Source: Chloroflexota bacterium
Lineage (GTDB): Bacteria; Chloroflexota; Dehalococcoidia; UBA1127; JACQUN01
Length of the DNA: 17,512 nt
NCBI GenBank assembly: GCA_016210285.1
Contig: JACQUN010000155.1
Location: forward strand, 1 to 17,512
Direction: 5' to 3'
Shown: positions 2,700 to 16,125 of the stretch, piece by piece
Layout of the letters: each line of letters starts with the position of its first letter
How positions within the stretch are numbered: position 1 is the first letter of the stretch
Position numbers and translations under genes: made by a program
The notes under the pieces: generated by a model
Database searches by the model: none
Seen by the model: only the letters and a program-made list of their open reading frames with translations
Told to the model about the DNA's origin: nothing

Positions 2700-2767
2700 A
2701 CGGGCCAGGGGTGTTTTCAGGTTTTCGCGTCCGCCTGCCGAGCGGGCGGAGGAGAGGAGGACCGGAG

Positions 2768-3304
2768 ATGGCCACTGAGCAGGAGCGTCTGGCCCGGGTG
2801 GGGCAGAAGGCGCTGGAGAATGACTACCACGGTGGCTGATCCCAGGCTGTGCTCCTGAGTTTGCAGGAGGAGTTTGGCCTGGGGGACCTGGCGTCCTTCA
2901 AGGCGGCCACGGTGCTGGCGGGTGGGGTAGCGCGGCAAGGCGAGACGTGCGGGGCGCTGCTGGGCGCCCTCATGGCTCTTGGGCTGGCAATAGGGCGAGA
3001 GAGGATGGAGGACACCCAGCCGTACCGGCGGGCCATGGGGCAGGCCCAGGAGGTGGCAAGGCGCTTCCGGCAGGAGTTGCAGACTCAGTTCGGTTTCACC
3101 ATTCCCCTGGAGAGCACCCTCTGTCGGGAGATTCAGGCCCGTGTCTACGGCCGCTCCTTCAATACCAACATCCCCGGGGAGTACGAGGCCTTTCTCGCCG
3201 CTGGCGGCCACTCCGCCCACGGGTGCCCCAAGGTTTGCGCCGTGGCGGCCCAGGCGGCCGCGAGGGAGCTGCTGCACTGGGAGCAGCATCGCCCTGCTCC
3301 CTAG
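2768..3304 (+). CDS. C_GCAxxG_C_C family redox protein with in-frame UGA (probable selenoprotein, Sec24)
   Basis: This is a 178-aa member of the C_GCAxxG_C_C family of probable redox proteins (PF09719/TIGR01909), usually about 140 aa long with four invariant cysteines. Translation starts at ATG 2768 with AGGAGG 7 nt upstream. Codon 24 (2837-2839) is TGA in the context GG-TGA-SQAVLLSL, exactly where relatives have the first cysteine (CSQAV). The frame then continues with the other landmarks: GETCGALLGALMALGL (the CGAxxG motif), a Cys in TLCREIQARVYG, and CPKVCAVAAQAA near the C terminus. It ends at TAG 3302-3304. A SECIS-like hairpin lies directly after the TGA. I recall the family description noting a Geobacter member with Sec at this same Cys. 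The mobA start lies 6 nt downstream, implying an operon. A standard caller would start at 2849 and lose the N terminus. A nonsense mutation is the alternative. Confidence 0.88.
2840..2884 (+). promoter_or_regulatory. Bacterial SECIS-like hairpin for Sec24
   Basis: This hairpin lies in the coding sequence immediately 3' of the UGA. The lower stem pairs CCCAGGC (2841-2847) with GCCTGGG (2877-2883), extended by a U-G pair. A 4/7-nt internal loop follows. The upper stem pairs CTCCTG (2852-2857) with CAGGAG (2864-2869), closed by the hexaloop AGTTTG (2858-2863). The apical loop begins 18 nt after the UGA, inside the 16-37 nt range reported for bacterial SECIS elements, and contains G and U as expected for SelB recognition. 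All stem pairs are perfect. The structure sits on coding sequence, so it must also satisfy the protein frame. Confidence 0.82.
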
Positions 3305-3310
3305 TGCAGA

Positions 3311-3928
3311 GTGGTGGCGCTGGTGACAGGCATCATCCTGGCAGGCGGCAAGAGCACCCGTTTGGGCCGTGACAAGGCCAAGGAGCGGGTGGGGGGCCAG
3401 ACCCTCCTTGAACGGGCTGTGGCTGCCCTGGCCCAGGTAGCAGAGGAGGTCATCATCGTGGTGGCTTCGGACCAGGAGCGAGGGGTCCCGCGCGGTCCCA
3501 GGGTTCGCGTGGCGGAGGATGTCCACCCCGGCCGGGGCCCTGTAGGCGGCTTGCATGCCGGCCTCCTGGCGTGCCGCTCTCCCCACGCATGGGCTGTGGC
3601 CTGCGATATGCCCTTCCTGAACCCCCGTCTGCTGCGCTCCCTGATGGCCCTTGCGCCCGGCTACGACGCTGTGGTGCCCAGGACGGGCGGGCGTGACCAC
3701 ACCCTCCACGCCGTCTATGGTCGGGGTTGCCTTGACACCCTGGAGGGGCTGCTGGCCCAGGAGCAGGAGCACCCTGGCATCCTGGACCTGCTGGCTCGGG
3801 TGCGGGTGCGCTACGTTCAGGAGGCTGAGGTGAGGCTCCTGGATCCGGAGGGCCTCTCGCTCTTCAACATCAACTCGCCCCAGGACCTGGAGCGGGCCAG
3901 GGCCCTGGTAGAGAGGGAAAACCCCTGA
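3311..3928 (+). CDS. mobA: Molybdenum cofactor guanylyltransferase MobA
   Basis: MobA transfers GMP from GTP to molybdopterin to form the guanine dinucleotide cofactor used by DMSO-reductase-family enzymes such as formate dehydrogenase and nitrate reductase. The 205-aa product has the nucleotidyltransferase signature at residues 10-23 (LAGGKSTRLGRDKA), the metal-binding CDMPFL around residues 98-103 and the FNINSPQDL motif near the end, all typical of MobA at about 190-210 aa. The start is uncertain. GTG 3311 gives the listed protein, but GTG at 3314 and 3323 are also possible and no strong ribosome binding site separates them. Only 6 nt follow the selenoprotein stop, so translation may be coupled. 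mobB follows after 17 nt. Confidence 0.95.
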   Translation: MVALVTGIILAGGKSTRLGRDKAKERVGGQTLLERAVAALAQVAEEVIIVVASDQERGVPRGPRVRVAEDVHPGRGPVGGLHAGLLACRSPHAWAVACDMPFLNPRLLRSLMALAPGYDAVVPRTGGRDHTLHAVYGRGCLDTLEGLLAQEQEHPGILDLLARVRVRYVQEAEVRLLDPEGLSLFNINSPQDLERARALVERENP

Positions 3929-3945: not shown

Positions 3946-4605
3946 ATGCTCCCGGTCCTCTGCATCGTTGGCAAGTCCAGCTCTGGCAAGACGACCTTCT
4001 TGGAGCGCCTCATCCCGGAGCTCAAGCAGCGGGGCTACCGCGTGGCTACGGTCAAACACAGCTCTCACGGCTTTGACCTCGACGTGGCTGGCAAGGACTC
4101 CTGGCGCTTGCTCAAGGCTGGCAGCGACCTGGTGCTCCTCAGCGGCCCCACGGGGATCGCCCGGTTCCAGGGTGCTTCGAGAGACACGCACCTGGAGGAA
4201 CTGGCCGCTGGAGTGGAGGGCTATGACCTGCTGCTGGCCGAGGGGTTCAAGGGAAGCCCCTTCCCCAAGGTGGAGGTGCACCGGGCCTCCCTGGGGCCGG
4301 ACCTGGTTTGCCAGGAGGCGCAGCTTGCAGCCCTGGTGAGCGATGGGCCGCCGCCCGTGAGCCTCCGCACCTTTGCCCCCACCGATGCCAGCGGCGTGGC
4401 GGACCTCCTGGAGCAGACCTACCTGAAGGGGAAGCCCCCGGCTGAAGAGATACGCCTGGTGGTCAACGGACAGACTGTTTCACTGAACCCCTTCGCCCAG
4501 AGCGTCATCAGCCGGGGCCTGCTGGGAATGGTCTCGGCACTCAAGGGGCTTGGCCCGGTGCAGCAGCTCACCGTCTCCATCTCCAGGCCCAAAGAGGCGC
4601 CGTAG
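3946..4605 (+). CDS. mobB: MobB, molybdopterin-guanine dinucleotide biosynthesis adaptor GTPase
   Basis: MobB is a P-loop GTP-binding partner of MobA that supports bis-MGD formation. The 219-aa protein opens with a Walker A motif (GKSSSGKTT, residues 9-17). It then shows the family features KHSSHGFDLDVAGKDSWR, where MobB binds nucleotide and sulfate, and the DLLLAEGFKGSPFPKVEV segment. The first 165 or so residues cover the ordinary MobB domain. A C-terminal extension of about 55 residues (IRLVVNGQTVSLNPFAQS, then a GMVSALKG segment) is extra, and I do not assign it a function. AAGGAGG lies 6 nt upstream of the ATG. It is the last gene of the selenoprotein-mobA-mobB unit, because a new promoter follows at 4637. 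Confidence 0.94.
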   Translation: MLPVLCIVGKSSSGKTTFLERLIPELKQRGYRVATVKHSSHGFDLDVAGKDSWRLLKAGSDLVLLSGPTGIARFQGASRDTHLEELAAGVEGYDLLLAEGFKGSPFPKVEVHRASLGPDLVCQEAQLAALVSDGPPPVSLRTFAPTDASGVADLLEQTYLKGKPPAEEIRLVVNGQTVSLNPFAQSVISRGLLGMVSALKGLGPVQQLTVSISRPKEAP

Positions 4606-4656: not shown

Positions 4657-8170
<3,514 letters not shown>

Positions 8171-8202
8171 AACCTAACAAACGAGGGCTGATAAGGAGGT
8201 GA

Positions 8203-9219
<1,017 letters not shown>

Positions 9220-9247
9220 CTCCCACAAGTTCTTTCGGAGGCACACC

Positions 9248-10825
9248 ATGCTGGACCTTCTGATCACCGGCGGGCTGGTCCTGGACGGGGCGGGCAACCC
9301 AGGCTTCTACGGCGCCGTGGGCGTGGAGGGCGAGACCGTCCGCGTCTTCCGGGGGGATGTTTCCGCCCTGGAGGCGGCGCGGGCCATTGACGCCACCGGC
9401 AAGGTGGTCTGCCCTGGCTTCATTGACATGCACGCCCACTCCGGCCTGGTCATCCTCTCCGAGCCGCGCCACGAGCCCAAGGTGCGCCAGGGCGTCACCA
9501 CCGAGGTCATCGGCATAGACGGCAACTCCTACGCCCCCTTTCACTCCCATGAGGACTTCCTGCGCTTCGTGGAGCTGAACTCCGGCCTGGACGGCAACCC
9601 GCCCCTGCCAGGGCGCTGGTCCACGGTAGAGCAATACCTCGCTATGTTTGACCAGAAGGTGGCGGTCAACATCGTCTACATGCTGGGCAACTCGCCGCTG
9701 CGCATCGCCGCCGTGGGGTGGGAGGACAGAAAGGCCACGGGCTCCCAACTGGAGAACATGAGGGCGCTGCTGCGGGAGGGGATGGAGGAGGGGGCCTGGG
9801 GTATGTCCACCGGTCTTGACTACCCCCCTGGCAGCTACGCCGACACCGCTGAGCTCGTGGGCCTCTCCCAGGAGGCGGCGCGCCTGGGGGGGATCTACCA
9901 CACCCACGTGCGCTACAGCCTGGGGGACCGCTACATGGACCCCTTCAACGAGGCCATCCAGATAGGCCGAGGGAGCGGCATCCCGGTGCACATCACCCAC
10001 TTCTACCAGCGGGCCACCTACCCCAGGGGCGGGCGACCCCTCCTGGACCTGGTGGAGGGCGCCCGGAGCGAGGGTCTGGACGTGACCTTCGACAGCTACC
10101 CCTACACCCTCTCCAGCACCCGGCTGCTCATCATGCTCCCCCAGTGGGCCCAGAACGGGGGCCCCGAGCGGGTGAAGCAGCTCCTCCGCTCCCCCGAGGG
10201 CAGGGAGAAGTTGCGGAAGGAGGTCCACCCCCGCGGCCTGTCCTGGCACGACATTTGGCTCACCTACTTCAAGCGGCCCCACAACCACAGGTACGAGGGT
10301 CGCTCCGTGGCCGAGGTGGCGCAGATGATGGGGAGGAGTGAGGCCGACGCCATCTGCGACCTACTGCTGGACGAGGACCTGCAGGTCTCCTACGTCGCCA
10401 CGGGCGCCAACGCGGCCACGCTCCCTTCCTTCGTGTGCCATCCGTGGTCCATGGTGGGCAGCGACGCTCTGCTCCTGGGGGATTTCCCCAGCCCTCGGAC
10501 CTACGGCACCTTCCCCTACATCCTCTCCGAGTTCGTGCGGGAGGAGCGGCTCATCTCCCTGCCCGAGGCAGTCCGCAAGATGACCTCCTACCCGGCGCAG
10601 CGGCTTGGCATCCCGGACCGCGGGGTGTTGCGAGACGGCATGAAGGCGGACCTCGTGGTCTTTGACCCCCAGAGGGTGAAAACACCGGCAACCCGGCTCA
10701 GCCCCAAGCAGTTCCCCGTAGGTATTGACTACGTGCTGGTGAACGGGAGGGTGGTGATAGACCAGGGCGGGCACACCGGGGCCCTGGCAGGCCGGGCGCT
10801 GCGAAGGGGCCGCGCCTCTACCTGA
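9248..10825 (+). CDS. D-aminoacylase-like amidohydrolase (N-acyl-D-amino-acid deacylase family)
   Basis: This is a 525-aa metal-dependent amidohydrolase. Family members hydrolyse N-acyl-D-amino acids or related amides. The beta-sandwich N terminus (LLITGGLVLDG) leads into the TIM-barrel metal motif GFIDMHAHSG with H62 and H64. Further ligands are H220 (YHTHVR), H251 (HITHFY) and D406 (MVGSDA), closely matching D-aminoacylase numbering for the first two histidines. The zinc-bound Cys96 of characterised D-aminoacylase, found in a GNCG motif, appears as D91 in GIDG here, so the metal site differs and substrate prediction is unsafe. The C-terminal ADLVVFDP is the normal amidohydrolase return strand. 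The ATG at 9248 has a GGAGG-like site (TTTCGGAGG) upstream. It lies 28 bp after gap, and ends facing the CocE-like gene. Confidence 0.9.
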   Translation: MLDLLITGGLVLDGAGNPGFYGAVGVEGETVRVFRGDVSALEAARAIDATGKVVCPGFIDMHAHSGLVILSEPRHEPKVRQGVTTEVIGIDGNSYAPFHSHEDFLRFVELNSGLDGNPPLPGRWSTVEQYLAMFDQKVAVNIVYMLGNSPLRIAAVGWEDRKATGSQLENMRALLREGMEEGAWGMSTGLDYPPGSYADTAELVGLSQEAARLGGIYHTHVRYSLGDRYMDPFNEAIQIGRGSGIPVHITHFYQRATYPRGGRPLLDLVEGARSEGLDVTFDSYPYTLSSTRLLIMLPQWAQNGGPERVKQLLRSPEGREKLRKEVHPRGLSWHDIWLTYFKRPHNHRYEGRSVAEVAQMMGRSEADAICDLLLDEDLQVSYVATGANAATLPSFVCHPWSMVGSDALLLGDFPSPRTYGTFPYILSEFVREERLISLPEAVRKMTSYPAQRLGIPDRGVLRDGMKADLVVFDPQRVKTPATRLSPKQFPVGIDYVLVNGRVVIDQGGHTGALAGRALRRGRAST

Positions 10826-10895: not shown

Positions 10896-12737
10896 TCACT
10901 CAGGGACGATGGGAAGCAGGATGTGCGAGGGGCGTTCCCGGTCGTGGTAGACCGCGTTTTCCGCAACCTGCCGACGGCGTGCCAAAGCAGGGTTCTCTCC
11001 CGTATTCGGGTTCACGTCGAAGCGCGGGAAGTTGCTGCTGGAGATGTCCACCCGGATGCGGTGGCCCCGCTGGAAGCGGTTGCTGGTGGGGTAGAGCTGG
11101 ATAGACAACCTGTACACCTGCCCCGGCCCCAGGGGCTCGGGCCGCTCCCAGGAGGTGCGGAATCGTGCCCGCAAGATGCCGTCGGTCACGTTCATGTGGA
11201 AACCCTGGGGGTAGTCGGCACTGGGAGGATAGACGTCCAGGAGCTTGGCAGTGAAATCGGTATCGGGGGTTGAGGAAGAGACCCACAGGTGCACGGTGAT
11301 AGGTCCCGTCACCTCCACATCGGCGGACAGAGGGGGTGTCTGGAAGACGAGTACGTCGTGGCGGGACGCCAGGGGCAGGTAAGGTTCCTGGGAGCCGTAG
11401 AAGCGCGGCCCCTCCCGCTGGTCAAAGGCGCCAGGCTCCATGATGGGCAGCCCGGAGGAGATGTTCCCGCCGATAGTAGGGACGGGATGATTCGGGTCGA
11501 ACAGGTAGCGGCTTGGAGGATGGGCTTGCCCTGGCGCCTCTGGCCGCAGCGAGCCACCGGGGTGGAAGTGGAAGGGCGCCCAGCTTGTCCGGGCCAGGGG
11601 CCACTCGCGCTCCCAGCGCCAGTGGCCGCCGTGATCCAGACGGCCCTCCTGGTTCGTGCGTCCGCTGCCCCCGCCCATCACGAAGATCCGCACCGGCGGC
11701 TCCCGGTCCAGCCCGTTGTCCAGGCCCTTGAGCCAGCGGTCAAACCACCGGAGGCGGAGGTCGTCGTAGTCCAGGGCCAGGTTTCCCTCTATGGCCGCCT
11801 CGAGGCCAAAGTCCACGTCCCCGGCAAAGGTCACGCTATGCTGTCCGTGGGTCCACGGCCCCATGAGCAGCCTCACGGGTCCTTTCTTCATCTGTGAGAG
11901 GGCAGTGAAGTTGTCGGTCGTTGTGCGGGCGTAGGGGTCGTACCAGGAGCCCATATGGAGCATGGGGACATCGCTGTAGGCACCGTAGTGCTCCTGGGCG
12001 CAGAGGCCAACCTGCTTCCAGTAGTCGTCGTACACCTCGTGAGACCAGATCTCCAGGAGGTACTCCTCGTAGTCAGGCACCCAGCAGAGGGGTGACAGCC
12101 CCCTCCTCCAGGGCAGCCGCTGGAACCAGGCCCGGATCTCCTCGGCGGCCAGGGCAGCCTTGACCACGGGGTTCTCCTGGGCCTCCCTGCTCACCAGTGC
12201 CTGGTTGTAGGCCCATGTGACCTGCCGCAGCTCGAAGGCTCCCCCGTTGCGACACGCCGAGTGGTAGGCGCTGGAGAATCCTCCAGAGTCCAGGAGCATG
12301 CAGCCCAGGGCAGGAGGAGTGGTGCATGCCAGGGCGCTCTGGGTGTGGGCGCCATAGGAGATGCCGAAGGTGCCGACCTTCGCGTTGCACCAGGGTTGTC
12401 GGGCCAGCCAGGCCAGGGTGTCATAGCCGTCCTGGCCGTCGGCAGTGTACTTGGTGAAGTGGCCCTCGGAGCCGAAACGCCCGCGGCAGTCCTGGAAGAC
12501 CACGACGTAGCCTCTGGGCACAAAGTAGGTCGCCTGCTGGACTCGCCGCGGGTCTCCCTTGTTGTAGGGCGTCCGCTCCAGAAGGACGGGGAAGGCCCTC
12601 TCCACGGGTAGGCCGCCCCGGGCCGGGCGGTGGATGTCGGAGGCCAGGCAGACTCCGTCCCGCATGGGCACCATCACATCTCGCTCAGTGGCAACCTCGT
12701 AGATGGGCTCTGACCTGGGCCAGTCCAGCTTTGGCAT
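10896..12737 (-). CDS. CocE/NonD family hydrolase (X-Pro dipeptidyl-peptidase S15 type)
   Basis: This 613-aa serine hydrolase has an alpha/beta-hydrolase domain and a C-terminal jelly-roll (PepX_C). The family includes cocaine esterase, cephalosporin acylases and X-Pro dipeptidyl peptidases. Visible features are an N-terminal MVPMRDGVCLASDIHRP, the RTPYNK and FQDCRGRFGSEG segments, and the nucleophile elbow FGISYG with Ser127. Acidic and His residues follow around the MLHMGSWYDPYARTT and LMGPWTHGQHS regions, where the catalytic Asp and His normally lie. The C-terminal half carries HLWVSSSTPDTDFTAKLLDV and HRIRVDISSSNFPRFDVNPNTG, typical of PepX_C. I chose ATG 12737 over an ATG 18 nt upstream because GGGAGGGG precedes it. 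No signal peptide is seen, so a cytoplasmic enzyme is expected. It is transcribed divergently from the CoA-transferase. Confidence 0.92.
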   Translation of the reverse strand: MPKLDWPRSEPIYEVATERDVMVPMRDGVCLASDIHRPARGGLPVERAFPVLLERTPYNKGDPRRVQQATYFVPRGYVVVFQDCRGRFGSEGHFTKYTADGQDGYDTLAWLARQPWCNAKVGTFGISYGAHTQSALACTTPPALGCMLLDSGGFSSAYHSACRNGGAFELRQVTWAYNQALVSREAQENPVVKAALAAEEIRAWFQRLPWRRGLSPLCWVPDYEEYLLEIWSHEVYDDYWKQVGLCAQEHYGAYSDVPMLHMGSWYDPYARTTTDNFTALSQMKKGPVRLLMGPWTHGQHSVTFAGDVDFGLEAAIEGNLALDYDDLRLRWFDRWLKGLDNGLDREPPVRIFVMGGGSGRTNQEGRLDHGGHWRWEREWPLARTSWAPFHFHPGGSLRPEAPGQAHPPSRYLFDPNHPVPTIGGNISSGLPIMEPGAFDQREGPRFYGSQEPYLPLASRHDVLVFQTPPLSADVEVTGPITVHLWVSSSTPDTDFTAKLLDVYPPSADYPQGFHMNVTDGILRARFRTSWERPEPLGPGQVYRLSIQLYPTSNRFQRGHRIRVDISSSNFPRFDVNPNTGENPALARRRQVAENAVYHDRERPSHILLPIVPE

Positions 12738-12828: not shown

Positions 12829-12860
12829 GCGCCCTACGGGATTGTACGGGAGGGGGTTCA

Positions 12861-15290
12861 GTGGGCCAGGTTCTTGAGGGTATCACGGTCCTGGACTTCA
12901 CCTGGGGCATGGCCGGGTCCATCGCCACCATGGTGCTGTCAGACTTCGGGGCGGAGGTTATCAAGGTGGAGCCCCCGGGTGGCGACCCCTTCCGCGCCTT
13001 TCCGGCCTCCCGGCTCTGGAACCGGGGTAAGAAAAGCATCATCCTGGACCTGAAGCGCCCCCAGGCCCGGGAGCAGCTCCTGCGCCTGGTCGCGGGGACC
13101 GATGTGGTCATCGAGAGCTTTCGCCCCGGGGTGGCAGAGCGGCTGGGCATCGGGTACGAGGCCCTCAGGGCCCAGCGCAAGGACCTGGTCTATTGCTCTA
13201 TCACCGGCTTTGGGCCCAGGGGTCAGTACGCACACTACAAGGGTTACGAAGGGGTCGTCGCCGCCAAGGCGGGGCGCATGATGATACTCGAGGGTCTGGT
13301 GGACCGCGAAGGGCCGGCCTACGCCGCGGTGAAGGTCGGAAACCACGCTGCCGCCCTGGCCGCGGTGCGGGGGATCGTGGCTGCCCTGTACGTGCGGGAC
13401 AGAACCGGGCAGGGGCAAAAGGTGGAGACGAGCCTCCTGCAGGCGCTCACCCCCTATGACATGCACCAGTGGATCGTCTGGCAGATGATGATCCGAGACC
13501 CGGAGCGGTTCCCCAACGACCCCCAGGGCGACCCACGCCGCATGACCCACCTGGGGTACACGCCTGCCCGCACCAAGGACGGACGCTGGATCCAGCTCGC
13601 CAACCTGGTGGACCGCCTCTTTCGGGCCTCCCTGCACACCATCGGCCTGGGAGCGGTCTTCGAGGACCCGCGGTTTGCCACGGCTCCCCAGCTCAGCGAG
13701 GAGAACCGGGAGGCGCTGCGGGAGATGATCCTGAAACGGATGCAGGAGAAGACCCTGGACGAGTGGATGGAGATCTTCGTCCACCACACCAGGGACGTGG
13801 CTGCCGAGCCTTTCTTGCACACCCACGAGGGACTGGACCATCCCCAGGTGGTGTACAACGGCCATATCCAGGAGGTGCGAGACCCCGAGGTGGGGGTGAT
13901 GCGCCAGTTGGGTCCGCTGCTGGTGATGGGCGCCACCCCGGGGAGCATCAAGGGCCCAGCGCCCAGGCCGGGTGAGCACACCGGCGAGGTCCTGGGGAGC
14001 ATCAGAAGCGCCTCGACCGGGGCCTCTTCCCTCGGCCAGGCCGGGCTGCCCCCCCACCCATTGGCGGGGATCACCGTTCTTGACCTCTCCACCGTCATCG
14101 CTGGCCCCCTCGGGGGGTCCCTGGTGGCGGAGCTGGGAGCTCGGGTCATCCGCGTGGAGACGCTGGAAGGGGACTGGATGCGGGGCAACGTCAGGGGCGT
14201 GACCGCCAACAGGACTATGGGGGGCACCGAAGGCGTGTCGGTGGACCTGAAGACGCCGGAGGGGCAGCAGATCCTCCGCGCCCTGGTGACGAGGGCAGAT
14301 GTCCTGCACCACAATATGCGTCCCGGTGCCCCTGAGCGTCTGGGGATTGGCTACGACCAGCTCCGCCCGCTCAACCCGAGGCTGGTCTACCTGTACGTGG
14401 CTGGGTATGGCTCCAAGGGGCCATACTCCCACCGCCCTGCTATGCACCCCATCCCCGGGGCTGTGCTGGGAGGAGCCCTCACCCAGCTTGGCCGTGGAGT
14501 CCTGCCTCCCCCGGATGCACCCCTCTCTCTTGAGGAGATCAAGGAGCTCTCCCGCAAGCTGGCCCGCGCCAACGACAGCAATCCCGACCCCAACACCTCG
14601 ATGGCAGTGTCCACGGGAATCATGCTGGGTCTCTACGCCCGGGAGCGCTACGGCATCGGCCAGTACCTGGAGGTGACCATGCTGGGGGCTAATGCCTACG
14701 CCAACGCCGACGACTTCTTCTGGTATGAAGGGAAGCCGCTCCGTCCCCTTCCGGATGCTGGGGGCTATGGCCTTCATGCACTGTACCGGCTGTATCGGGC
14801 CCAGAAGGGCTGGGTCTTCCTGGCCTGCCTGTTCGAGCACGAGTGGCGTGCCCTGTGCGCCGCCATCGGGCGGAAGAACCTCCTGGAGGAGCCCCGCTTT
14901 GCCACGGGGGAAGCGCGACGGCAGCACGATGACGCCCTGGCAGAGGTGCTGGCGCAGGTGTTCGCCACGCGCCCGGCCGCCGCCTGGGAGCAGACCCTGG
15001 CGGCGGCGGATGTGGCATGTGTCCAGGCGGAAGACCGAGGGATGTACCACTTCTTTGCGGAGGACTCTCACGTCCAGGAGAACGGCTTCACCACCGAGGT
15101 GGAGCACCCGCGATGGGGCGCTTTCTGGCGACACAGCCCTGTCATCACCTTCTCTCTCACGCCCGGGAGGGTGGGCCCCGGTCCCCTCAGGGGGCAGCAC
15201 ACCAGGGCCGTCCTTCGGGAGCTAGGGTATAGCGATTCCCAGATTGCCGAGCTGCGCCAGCGACGGGTGGTGGACTGGGAAGAGCCGTAG
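12861..15290 (+). CDS. Fused two-domain CaiB/BaiF (class III) CoA-transferase
   Basis: The 809-aa protein contains two tandem class III CoA-transferase domains. Domain 1 (about 1-385) begins LEGITVLDFTWGMAGSIA and domain 2 (about 401-800) begins LAGITVLDLSTVIAGPLGG. Both carry the GADVIKVE-type strand, the RPGxxERLGIGY motif and the RTGxGQ-type segment (DRTGQGQ, ERYGIGQ). Aligning by eye on the segment before AL-x-x-R, the catalytic Asp (D169 in formyl-CoA transferase) is kept in domain 2 as D576 (DPNTSMAV) but is Asn in domain 1 (N161, GNHAAALA). Domain 1 may thus be structural or regulatory. The same two-domain size is known from DddD-type DMSP CoA-transferase/lyases, but I cannot name a substrate. 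I chose GTG 12861 (GGGAGGGG 5 nt upstream) over the frame opening at 12768, whose first residues are low-quality sequence. Confidence 0.92.
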   Translation: MGQVLEGITVLDFTWGMAGSIATMVLSDFGAEVIKVEPPGGDPFRAFPASRLWNRGKKSIILDLKRPQAREQLLRLVAGTDVVIESFRPGVAERLGIGYEALRAQRKDLVYCSITGFGPRGQYAHYKGYEGVVAAKAGRMMILEGLVDREGPAYAAVKVGNHAAALAAVRGIVAALYVRDRTGQGQKVETSLLQALTPYDMHQWIVWQMMIRDPERFPNDPQGDPRRMTHLGYTPARTKDGRWIQLANLVDRLFRASLHTIGLGAVFEDPRFATAPQLSEENREALREMILKRMQEKTLDEWMEIFVHHTRDVAAEPFLHTHEGLDHPQVVYNGHIQEVRDPEVGVMRQLGPLLVMGATPGSIKGPAPRPGEHTGEVLGSIRSASTGASSLGQAGLPPHPLAGITVLDLSTVIAGPLGGSLVAELGARVIRVETLEGDWMRGNVRGVTANRTMGGTEGVSVDLKTPEGQQILRALVTRADVLHHNMRPGAPERLGIGYDQLRPLNPRLVYLYVAGYGSKGPYSHRPAMHPIPGAVLGGALTQLGRGVLPPPDAPLSLEEIKELSRKLARANDSNPDPNTSMAVSTGIMLGLYARERYGIGQYLEVTMLGANAYANADDFFWYEGKPLRPLPDAGGYGLHALYRLYRAQKGWVFLACLFEHEWRALCAAIGRKNLLEEPRFATGEARRQHDDALAEVLAQVFATRPAAAWEQTLAAADVACVQAEDRGMYHFFAEDSHVQENGFTTEVEHPRWGAFWRHSPVITFSLTPGRVGPGPLRGQHTRAVLRELGYSDSQIAELRQRRVVDWEEP

Positions 15291-15675: not shown

Positions 15676-16125
15676 TTACACCACACCCAACGCCTGGAAC
15701 ACCTCCAGGAACTGGCCCACATTCCCCGGCTGATACCAGGGGATCTTGTGGACGATCCTCCCTTCAGCGTCCAGGACGAACACCGCCCTGCGGCTGCGCT
15801 TGCCATCCTCCCCCAGGACATCGTAGAGGCGGGCGACATGCAACCCCTCGTCGCTGGCCAGGGGAAAGGGGCATCCCCCGATGGCCTCGCAGAACCGACC
15901 GTGGGTTTCCAGGCTATCGGCACTGATGGCAACCACCTCTGCGCCTGCCTCCTGGACGGCCCTGTACTCCTCCCTCAAGGAGGAGACCTCCTGGGTTCAG
16001 CCGGGGGTGTTGTCCTCAGTGTAGAAGGCAAGCACCACCTTCTTTCCGCGCAGGTCCGTAAGGCGTAGTGGGCCCCTGGTGCTGGGCAGCGAGAAATCCG
16101 GCGCCTGCTCTCCCACTTCAGGCAT
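15676..16125 (-). CDS. bcp: BCP/PrxQ-type peroxiredoxin with in-frame UGA at the peroxidatic position (probable selenoprotein, Sec43)
   Basis: Peroxiredoxins reduce peroxides with an active-site Cys. The 149-codon frame starts at ATG 16125 (GGAGGG 8 nt upstream) and reads GEQAPDFSLPS, then LRGKKVVLAFYTEDNTPG, then TGA at codon 43 (15999-15997). It continues TQEVSSLREEY, then AEVVAISADSLETH, PFPLASD and RRAVFVLDAEGRI to TAA at 15678-15676. The TGA therefore replaces the peroxidatic Cys of the TPGCTxE motif. The usual resolving Cys five residues on is Ser48. C79, 36 residues after Sec43, matches the spacing I recall for Xylella-type BCP. PrxU selenoproteins with Sec at this site are known. A SECIS-like hairpin follows the TGA. 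A standard caller would report only a 100-aa fragment from 15978. It lies 58 bp downstream of the flavodoxin gene, same strand, and may share its promoter. Confidence 0.88.
15960..15996 (-). promoter_or_regulatory. Bacterial SECIS-like hairpin for Sec43
   Basis: On the minus strand, directly after the UGA, CTCCTCC (15985-15979) pairs perfectly with GGAGGAG (15973-15967) around the 5-nt loop TTGAG (15978-15974). A short lower stem, CCC (15995-15993) with GGG (15962-15960), closes a 7/4 internal loop. The apical loop starts 18 nt after the UGA, the same distance as in the hairpin at 2840-2884. The lower stem is weaker than in that element. Confidence 0.72.

Follow-up and report, generated by a model that had tools for sequence, protein, structure and literature searches.

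Selenoproteins of the C_GCAxxG_C_C family have been listed before. The family appears as a single entry in the table of PMC9312934 and as forms 1 and 2 in that of PMC13188914, where form 2 is credited to PMC2398784; neither GCAxxG nor pfam09719 occurs in the main text of the latter. No established function was found for the family. The literature on selenocysteine (Sec) and Chloroflexi, as far as it was covered, reports Sec formate dehydrogenases, and no publication on a Chloroflexota form of the C_GCAxxG_C_C protein was found in this partial coverage; searches for SAR202 selenoproteins and for DVU_1555 likewise returned no literature. The gene described here lies on a single 17.5-kb contig of a Chloroflexota bacterium, the whole of which is referred to as the window. 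Its product shares the PF09719/TIGR01909 domain of the listed selenoproteins above cut-off. Since such proteins are already present in both tables, it is an added member and not a new selenoprotein family, and an earlier note on this DNA, which proposed the Sec form as a lead, holds for the Sec form itself. Compared with forms 1 and 2 at the level of their table entries, the window protein belongs to a Chloroflexota/Rokubacteria clade apart from the Syntrophaceae type, and this clade, whose SECIS has a register of its own, adds modestly to what is known. Two other described groups match the window protein partly across the Sec region, but it is a member of neither: the HUGP/GUXX-star fusion selenoprotein NF045501 (34.9 bits, cut-off 325) and the DVU_1555 family NF045669 (37.4 bits, cut-off 103).

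The gene occupies positions 2768-3304 on the forward strand and would code for a protein of 178 residues whose residue 24 is Sec. An AGGAGG ribosome-binding site at 2755-2760 (+) ends 7 nt upstream of ATG 2768, and from this start to the TAG at 3302-3304 the frame is interrupted only once, by the TGA at 2837-2839 (+), which is codon 24 and the Sec candidate. When the TGA was translated as Cys, the product scored 73.1 bits against PF09719 (cut-off 27) and 52.5 bits against TIGR01909 (cut-off 47.4), a model described by NCBI as "C-GCAxxG-C-C family (seleno)protein". Both matches begin at residue 24, and the TGA column is the first Cys of the family. The window's own database entry, P0003, is 27 residues shorter at the TGA end and comprises 151 residues from GTG 2849. 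A reassigned TGA codon was ruled out because genes of the window terminate at TGA, which is the ordinary terminator in 7 of the 17 window frames examined.

A protein search gave 409 matches, and 32 homologs from the best 120 of these were aligned with the window protein. Cys occupies the TGA column in each of the 22 full-length rows, and the 23 residues preceding this column in the window protein align with the full-length homologs. The 10 further rows, known as protein entries only, begin 3-9 residues past the TGA column, as would be expected if the gene calls had been cut at a TGA. One of these short entries, P0006 from a Dehalococcoidia bacterium, is named "(seleno)protein", which is the family name and reflects no test for Sec. 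In a 46-row alignment with distant members excluded, position 24 (TGA rows taken as Cys), Cys61, Cys119, Cys153, and Cys157 are invariant, and no CxxC is formed by any of these five positions. The earlier note had described an in-frame TGA on the first invariant Cys, a good ribosome-binding site, a homologous N terminus, and retention of the other family Cys residues, and each of these points was borne out.

The genome contig scan provided 44 loci from other genomes, and codon 24 is TGA in 15 of them (L001, L002, L008, L009, and L026-L036), a Cys codon in 28, and truncated in one (L039), which was left out of the Sec/Cys tallies. The second TGA found in L008 ends its reading frame. The set of 23 Cys rows, the recoding tests, and the tree leave out the five distant loci with Cys, L040-L044. 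Further searches of 294, 197, and 95 genomes, sets that overlapped the earlier ones, yielded 8, 3, and 5 matches under the thresholds applied; the additional ones were Cys codons in L046-L052 (seven genomes) and L064, and TGA in L062 and L063, both from the search of 95 genomes. Viral contigs gave nine pattern matches and no relative. A tandem pair of C_GCAxxG_C_C genes was observed in a Bathyarchaeota locus (L018:10001-11040).

According to the published model of the bacterial SECIS, the loop has 3-9 nt with a G within its first two positions, the upper stem has 4-16 bp, and the element lies 16-37 nt from the UGA (values as given in PMC13188914). The putative SECIS of the window gene spans 2840-2884 (+); its lower stem pairs 2840-2849 with 2875-2884, and its apical hairpin at 2852-2869, CTCCTG[AGTTTG]CAGGAG with the loop at 2858-2863, has 6 bp and the loop AGUUUG 18 nt after the TGA, in agreement with the model. 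The perfectly paired two-stem hairpin of the earlier note calls for caution: in the predicted minimum-energy fold the upper stem takes a register different from the one conserved in the relatives. A 61-nt stretch of the window folds at -29.3 kcal/mol (z -2.36; 2 of 200 shuffles were as good). Against synonymous recodings, the apical hairpin was not significant (p 0.179) and a 48-nt stretch was borderline (p 0.05), and the recoded fraction under a strict SECIS rule, defined as six Watson-Crick pairs, was 0.09. Across the gene set, the window included, the apical hairpin was unusually stable relative to random synonymous recodings (p at most 0.05) in 13 of 16 TGA genes and in 2 of 23 Cys genes; the strict rule held in 12 of 16 TGA genes (1.5 expected) and in 2 of 23 Cys genes (2.2 expected), and these counts are not independent because the rows are related. 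It is in the TGA genes as a set that the SECIS signal is clear; in the window's gene alone it is weak. The hairpin of L001, L002, L008, and L009 is TCCTCCTG[AGTTTG]CAGGAGGA. Among the 11 Syntrophaceae-type genes, a GCTY loop on a perfect 7-8 bp stem was found in 6, the loop of L036 is shifted, and four genes (L030, L031, L032, and L034) fall outside the strict rule. No Rfam family matched the window at gathering score, and one match close to the gene, at 17.7 bits where the gathering score is 50, was taken as chance.

The window is known from its one contig, in which a tRNA search found nothing over 17.5 kb, and the results for selA, selB, selC, and selD therefore describe the genomes of relatives. 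SelB above cut-off was present in 13 of 15 TGA genomes against 2 of 23 close Cys genomes, and the same counts, 13/15 against 2/23, were obtained for tRNA-Sec of at least 60 bits, a threshold chosen post hoc after a gap in the scores was visible. When the gathering score was applied instead, tRNA-Sec was found in 13 of 15 TGA genomes, 5 of 23 Cys genomes, and 5 of 14 controls; three Cys genomes (G019, G021, and G022) have tRNA-Sec at 47-49 bits, above that score. At least one of SelB and tRNA-Sec occurs in all 15 TGA genomes, SelD is above cut-off in 14 of them, and SelA in 12. Among the 23 close Cys genomes, only G003 and G013 have both SelB above cut-off and tRNA-Sec of at least 60 bits, and the same two have SelA and SelD above cut-off among the 7 searched for these. 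The association between the Sec machinery and the TGA form is imperfect, and genomes that bear the machinery can retain the Cys form. In the distant Cys genomes G040-G044, SelB was above cut-off in 4 of 5 and tRNA-Sec above 60 bits in all 5 (G041-G044 have both and G040 has tRNA-Sec alone), and the Cys form is kept in all of them. G511 has the TGA form with SelB and tRNA-Sec both under cut-off, and in G524 the codon is for Cys although tRNA-Sec is present, with SelB not above cut-off. As a separate observation, of the 16 genomes with selD above cut-off, 15 (G001, G002, G008, G009, G013, G026, G027, and G029-G036) show a single in-frame TGA in that gene, suggesting that SelD is probably a selenoprotein too in those genomes.

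In addition, a second gene of the window shows the same TGA arrangement. The reading frame at 15676-16125 on the reverse strand matches AhpC-TSA peroxiredoxins (PF00578, 121.9 bits with the TGA taken as Cys) and carries an in-frame TGA, a Sec candidate, at codon 43 (15997-15999, reverse strand), within a TPGU (TxxU) motif; its product is a probable selenoprotein. Its AhpC-TSA domain and TxxU motif are those of the Bcp-type Sec peroxiredoxin in the table of PMC9312934, but its score falls below the cut-off of every NCBIfam peroxiredoxin model. The apical hairpin, CTCCTCCT[TGA]GGGAGGAG, at 15967-15985 (reverse strand), 19 nt past the TGA, fits the SECIS geometry with one G-U pair. Only 0.5% of 2000 synonymous recodings were as good for the apical hairpin (p 0.005), and 0.55% for a 48-nt stretch; compared with dinucleotide shuffles, a 63-nt stretch was no better (z -0.67; 51 of 200 as good). 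In six relatives the TGA column is TGA in L058 and Cys in L053, L055, and L056, and L054 and L057 gave no useful alignment. The occurrence of two TGA-for-Cys genes on one 17.5-kb contig points to an organism that uses Sec.

Taken together, the TGA at the same codon elsewhere, the hairpin 18 nt downstream in most of these genes, and the Sec machinery in those genomes indicate that Sec is very probably inserted at codon 24 in this organism, at the first family Cys, as the earlier note had proposed. Two other readings of the codon deserve consideration. As the window is a single contig read, the TGA could be suspected to be an error of sequencing or a nonsense codon acquired by a gene in decay, but the recurrence of the TGA in 15 of the 44 other loci, the intact frame on either side, the recurrence of the hairpin among relatives, and the second TGA gene of the window make this explanation extremely improbable. 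It might also be supposed that the real protein is the 151-residue product called from GTG 2849 in the database, with the upstream codons not co-translated. This GTG, however, is replaced by GTC in L001, L002, L008, and L009, the upstream residues align with the Cys homologs, and without the N terminus the TIGR01909 score drops to 42.7 bits, under the cut-off of 47.4. Over 19 upstream codons, third positions account for 13 of 23 differences from L001, 14 of 24 from L002, 13 of 23 from L008, and 8 of 16 from L009, even though the residue is altered at 8-10 of the 19 codons. On balance we consider the shorter product highly improbable. With Sec insertion, ribosomes would initiate at ATG 2768, SelB with Sec-tRNA(Sec), bound to the downstream hairpin, would place selenocysteine at the TGA at 2837-2839, and translation would proceed to 3304.

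In its likeliest role, the product might then be soluble and take part in thiol/selenol redox chemistry, with Sec24 as the attacking residue and a conserved Cys resolving it. Like its partner, this role is a guess, drawn from conservation and the predicted fold, and we regard it as about an even chance. The predicted model, built with Cys at position 24, is all helical (pLDDT 93.5, pTM 0.90), with helices that start at 4, 24, 41, 62, 83, 119, 136, and 153, and the fold so predicted is not thioredoxin-like. In this model positions 24, 119, and 153 begin helices, Cys61 lies one residue ahead of the helix 62-75, and Cys157 is in a first helix turn. Such placement at helix starts would favor either reactivity of a selenolate/thiolate or binding of a metal, and the main rival to the redox role, in which Sec is inserted all the same, is that Sec24 and conserved Cys residues ligate a non-haem iron or an iron-sulfur center in an electron carrier or metal sensor. 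Besides the predicted helix starts, five invariant Cys/Sec positions with no CxxC among them are consistent with this role. So is the match to split-Soret cytochrome c 1h21, the only plausible relative of solved structure in sequence, which is accompanied by weak NCBIfam matches (E 0.0081 for the window protein; for two relatives of the Cys form, 0.00096 and 0.00022). The relation to 1h21 is weak, however: it is confined to the region around GxxCGALxG, with E 0.19, and the rest of the window protein barely aligns. No on-topic literature was found for Sec as an iron-sulfur ligand, and to our knowledge Sec ligands of such centers are rare, which counts further against the metal site. We consider a metal-ligand role less likely than the redox role.

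A third role was considered from the genes that follow on the same strand. A MobA-like NTP transferase gene, mobA, at 3311-3928 (+) (PF12804, 131.2 bits; all NCBIfam MobA models below cut-off) has its first possible GTG start about 6 nt past the stop of the selenoprotein gene, and mobB comes next at 3946-4605 (+) (PF03205, 140.3 bits; TIGR00176 above cut-off), so the selenoprotein gene is probably co-transcribed with mobA. This position could mean that the protein serves molybdenum cofactor maturation, and the earlier note regarded a Sec form beside mobAB as a useful lead on the redox chemistry of the family. However, neither MobA nor MobB of the window had a tblastn match at 1e-6 in the 44 related loci, whose flanks range from 0.3 to 10 kb and are short in many cases, and the neighbors vary elsewhere (a uroporphyrinogen decarboxylase-like (URO-D) gene with a corrinoid protein, lactonase, MFS, amidase, and others). 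With 0/44 loci, mobAB offers poor guidance to function and was rejected as a functional partner, and a part in cofactor maturation appears very unlikely.

Other features of the neighborhoods are noted here. URO-D genes lie 3' of the Sec-form genes in L001 (5708-7656), where a B12-binding protein accompanies it, in L026 (about 460 nt past the TGA), and in L028 (10533-11573). As a neighbor shared by the TGA group, URO-D was rejected with 3 of 16 TGA loci, the window counted, and 0 of 23 Cys loci, numbers that are too few; two of the three loci had supplied the queries. In L013, a C_GCAxxG_C_C gene of the Cys form immediately follows selA and selB (the three at 6618-10525), with a tRNA-Sec at 12007-12103, an arrangement that possibly links the family to selenium metabolism. 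As a general link it was not retained: SelB adjoins in one of six matches of L013's order, that of L013 itself, within flanks of at most about 1.5 kb. In the window, a GmrSD-type gene (PF03235 and PF07510; 6488-8170, forward strand) lies between an enolase-like reading frame and GAPDH and is perhaps an insertion. Among named entries, those nearest to the GAPDH come from Chloroflexota and Dehalococcoidia. A long frame at 12840-15290 (+) matches CaiB-type CoA-transferases in as many as three stretches, none of which reaches an NCBIfam cut-off, and looks like two fused domains.

A 39-row tree computed after blanking the Sec column divides the TGA rows into two separate groups. The window groups with L001, L002, L008, and L009 (98/93) in the Chloroflexota/Rokubacteria clade, apart from the Syntrophaceae-type clade, and two hairpin registers are found across these two TGA clades. 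The starred branches of the tree force two state changes, and none of 200 bootstrap trees had one. This pattern may reflect two gains, or a single gain followed by losses. A bolder reading, which we consider unlikely as a whole, combines both questions: Sec would have replaced the same Cys on two or more occasions, with a separate SECIS register on each, and would bind, as a selenolate, an iron or iron-sulfur center at helix N-termini. In that same joint reading, the registers would overlie the same VLxxLQ codons, with the 6-nt loop AGUUUG in the Chloroflexota/Rokubacteria clade and mostly the 4-nt loop GCUY in the Syntrophaceae type. If true, the protein would be a small model, provided by nature, of a cluster with a selenolate ligand.

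The natural exchange of Sec and Cys singles out position 24 as the first residue to test for function in the C_GCAxxG_C_C family. In addition, two clades that share the TGA codon but differ in hairpin register offer a natural comparison of how a SECIS may originate within a constrained coding sequence.
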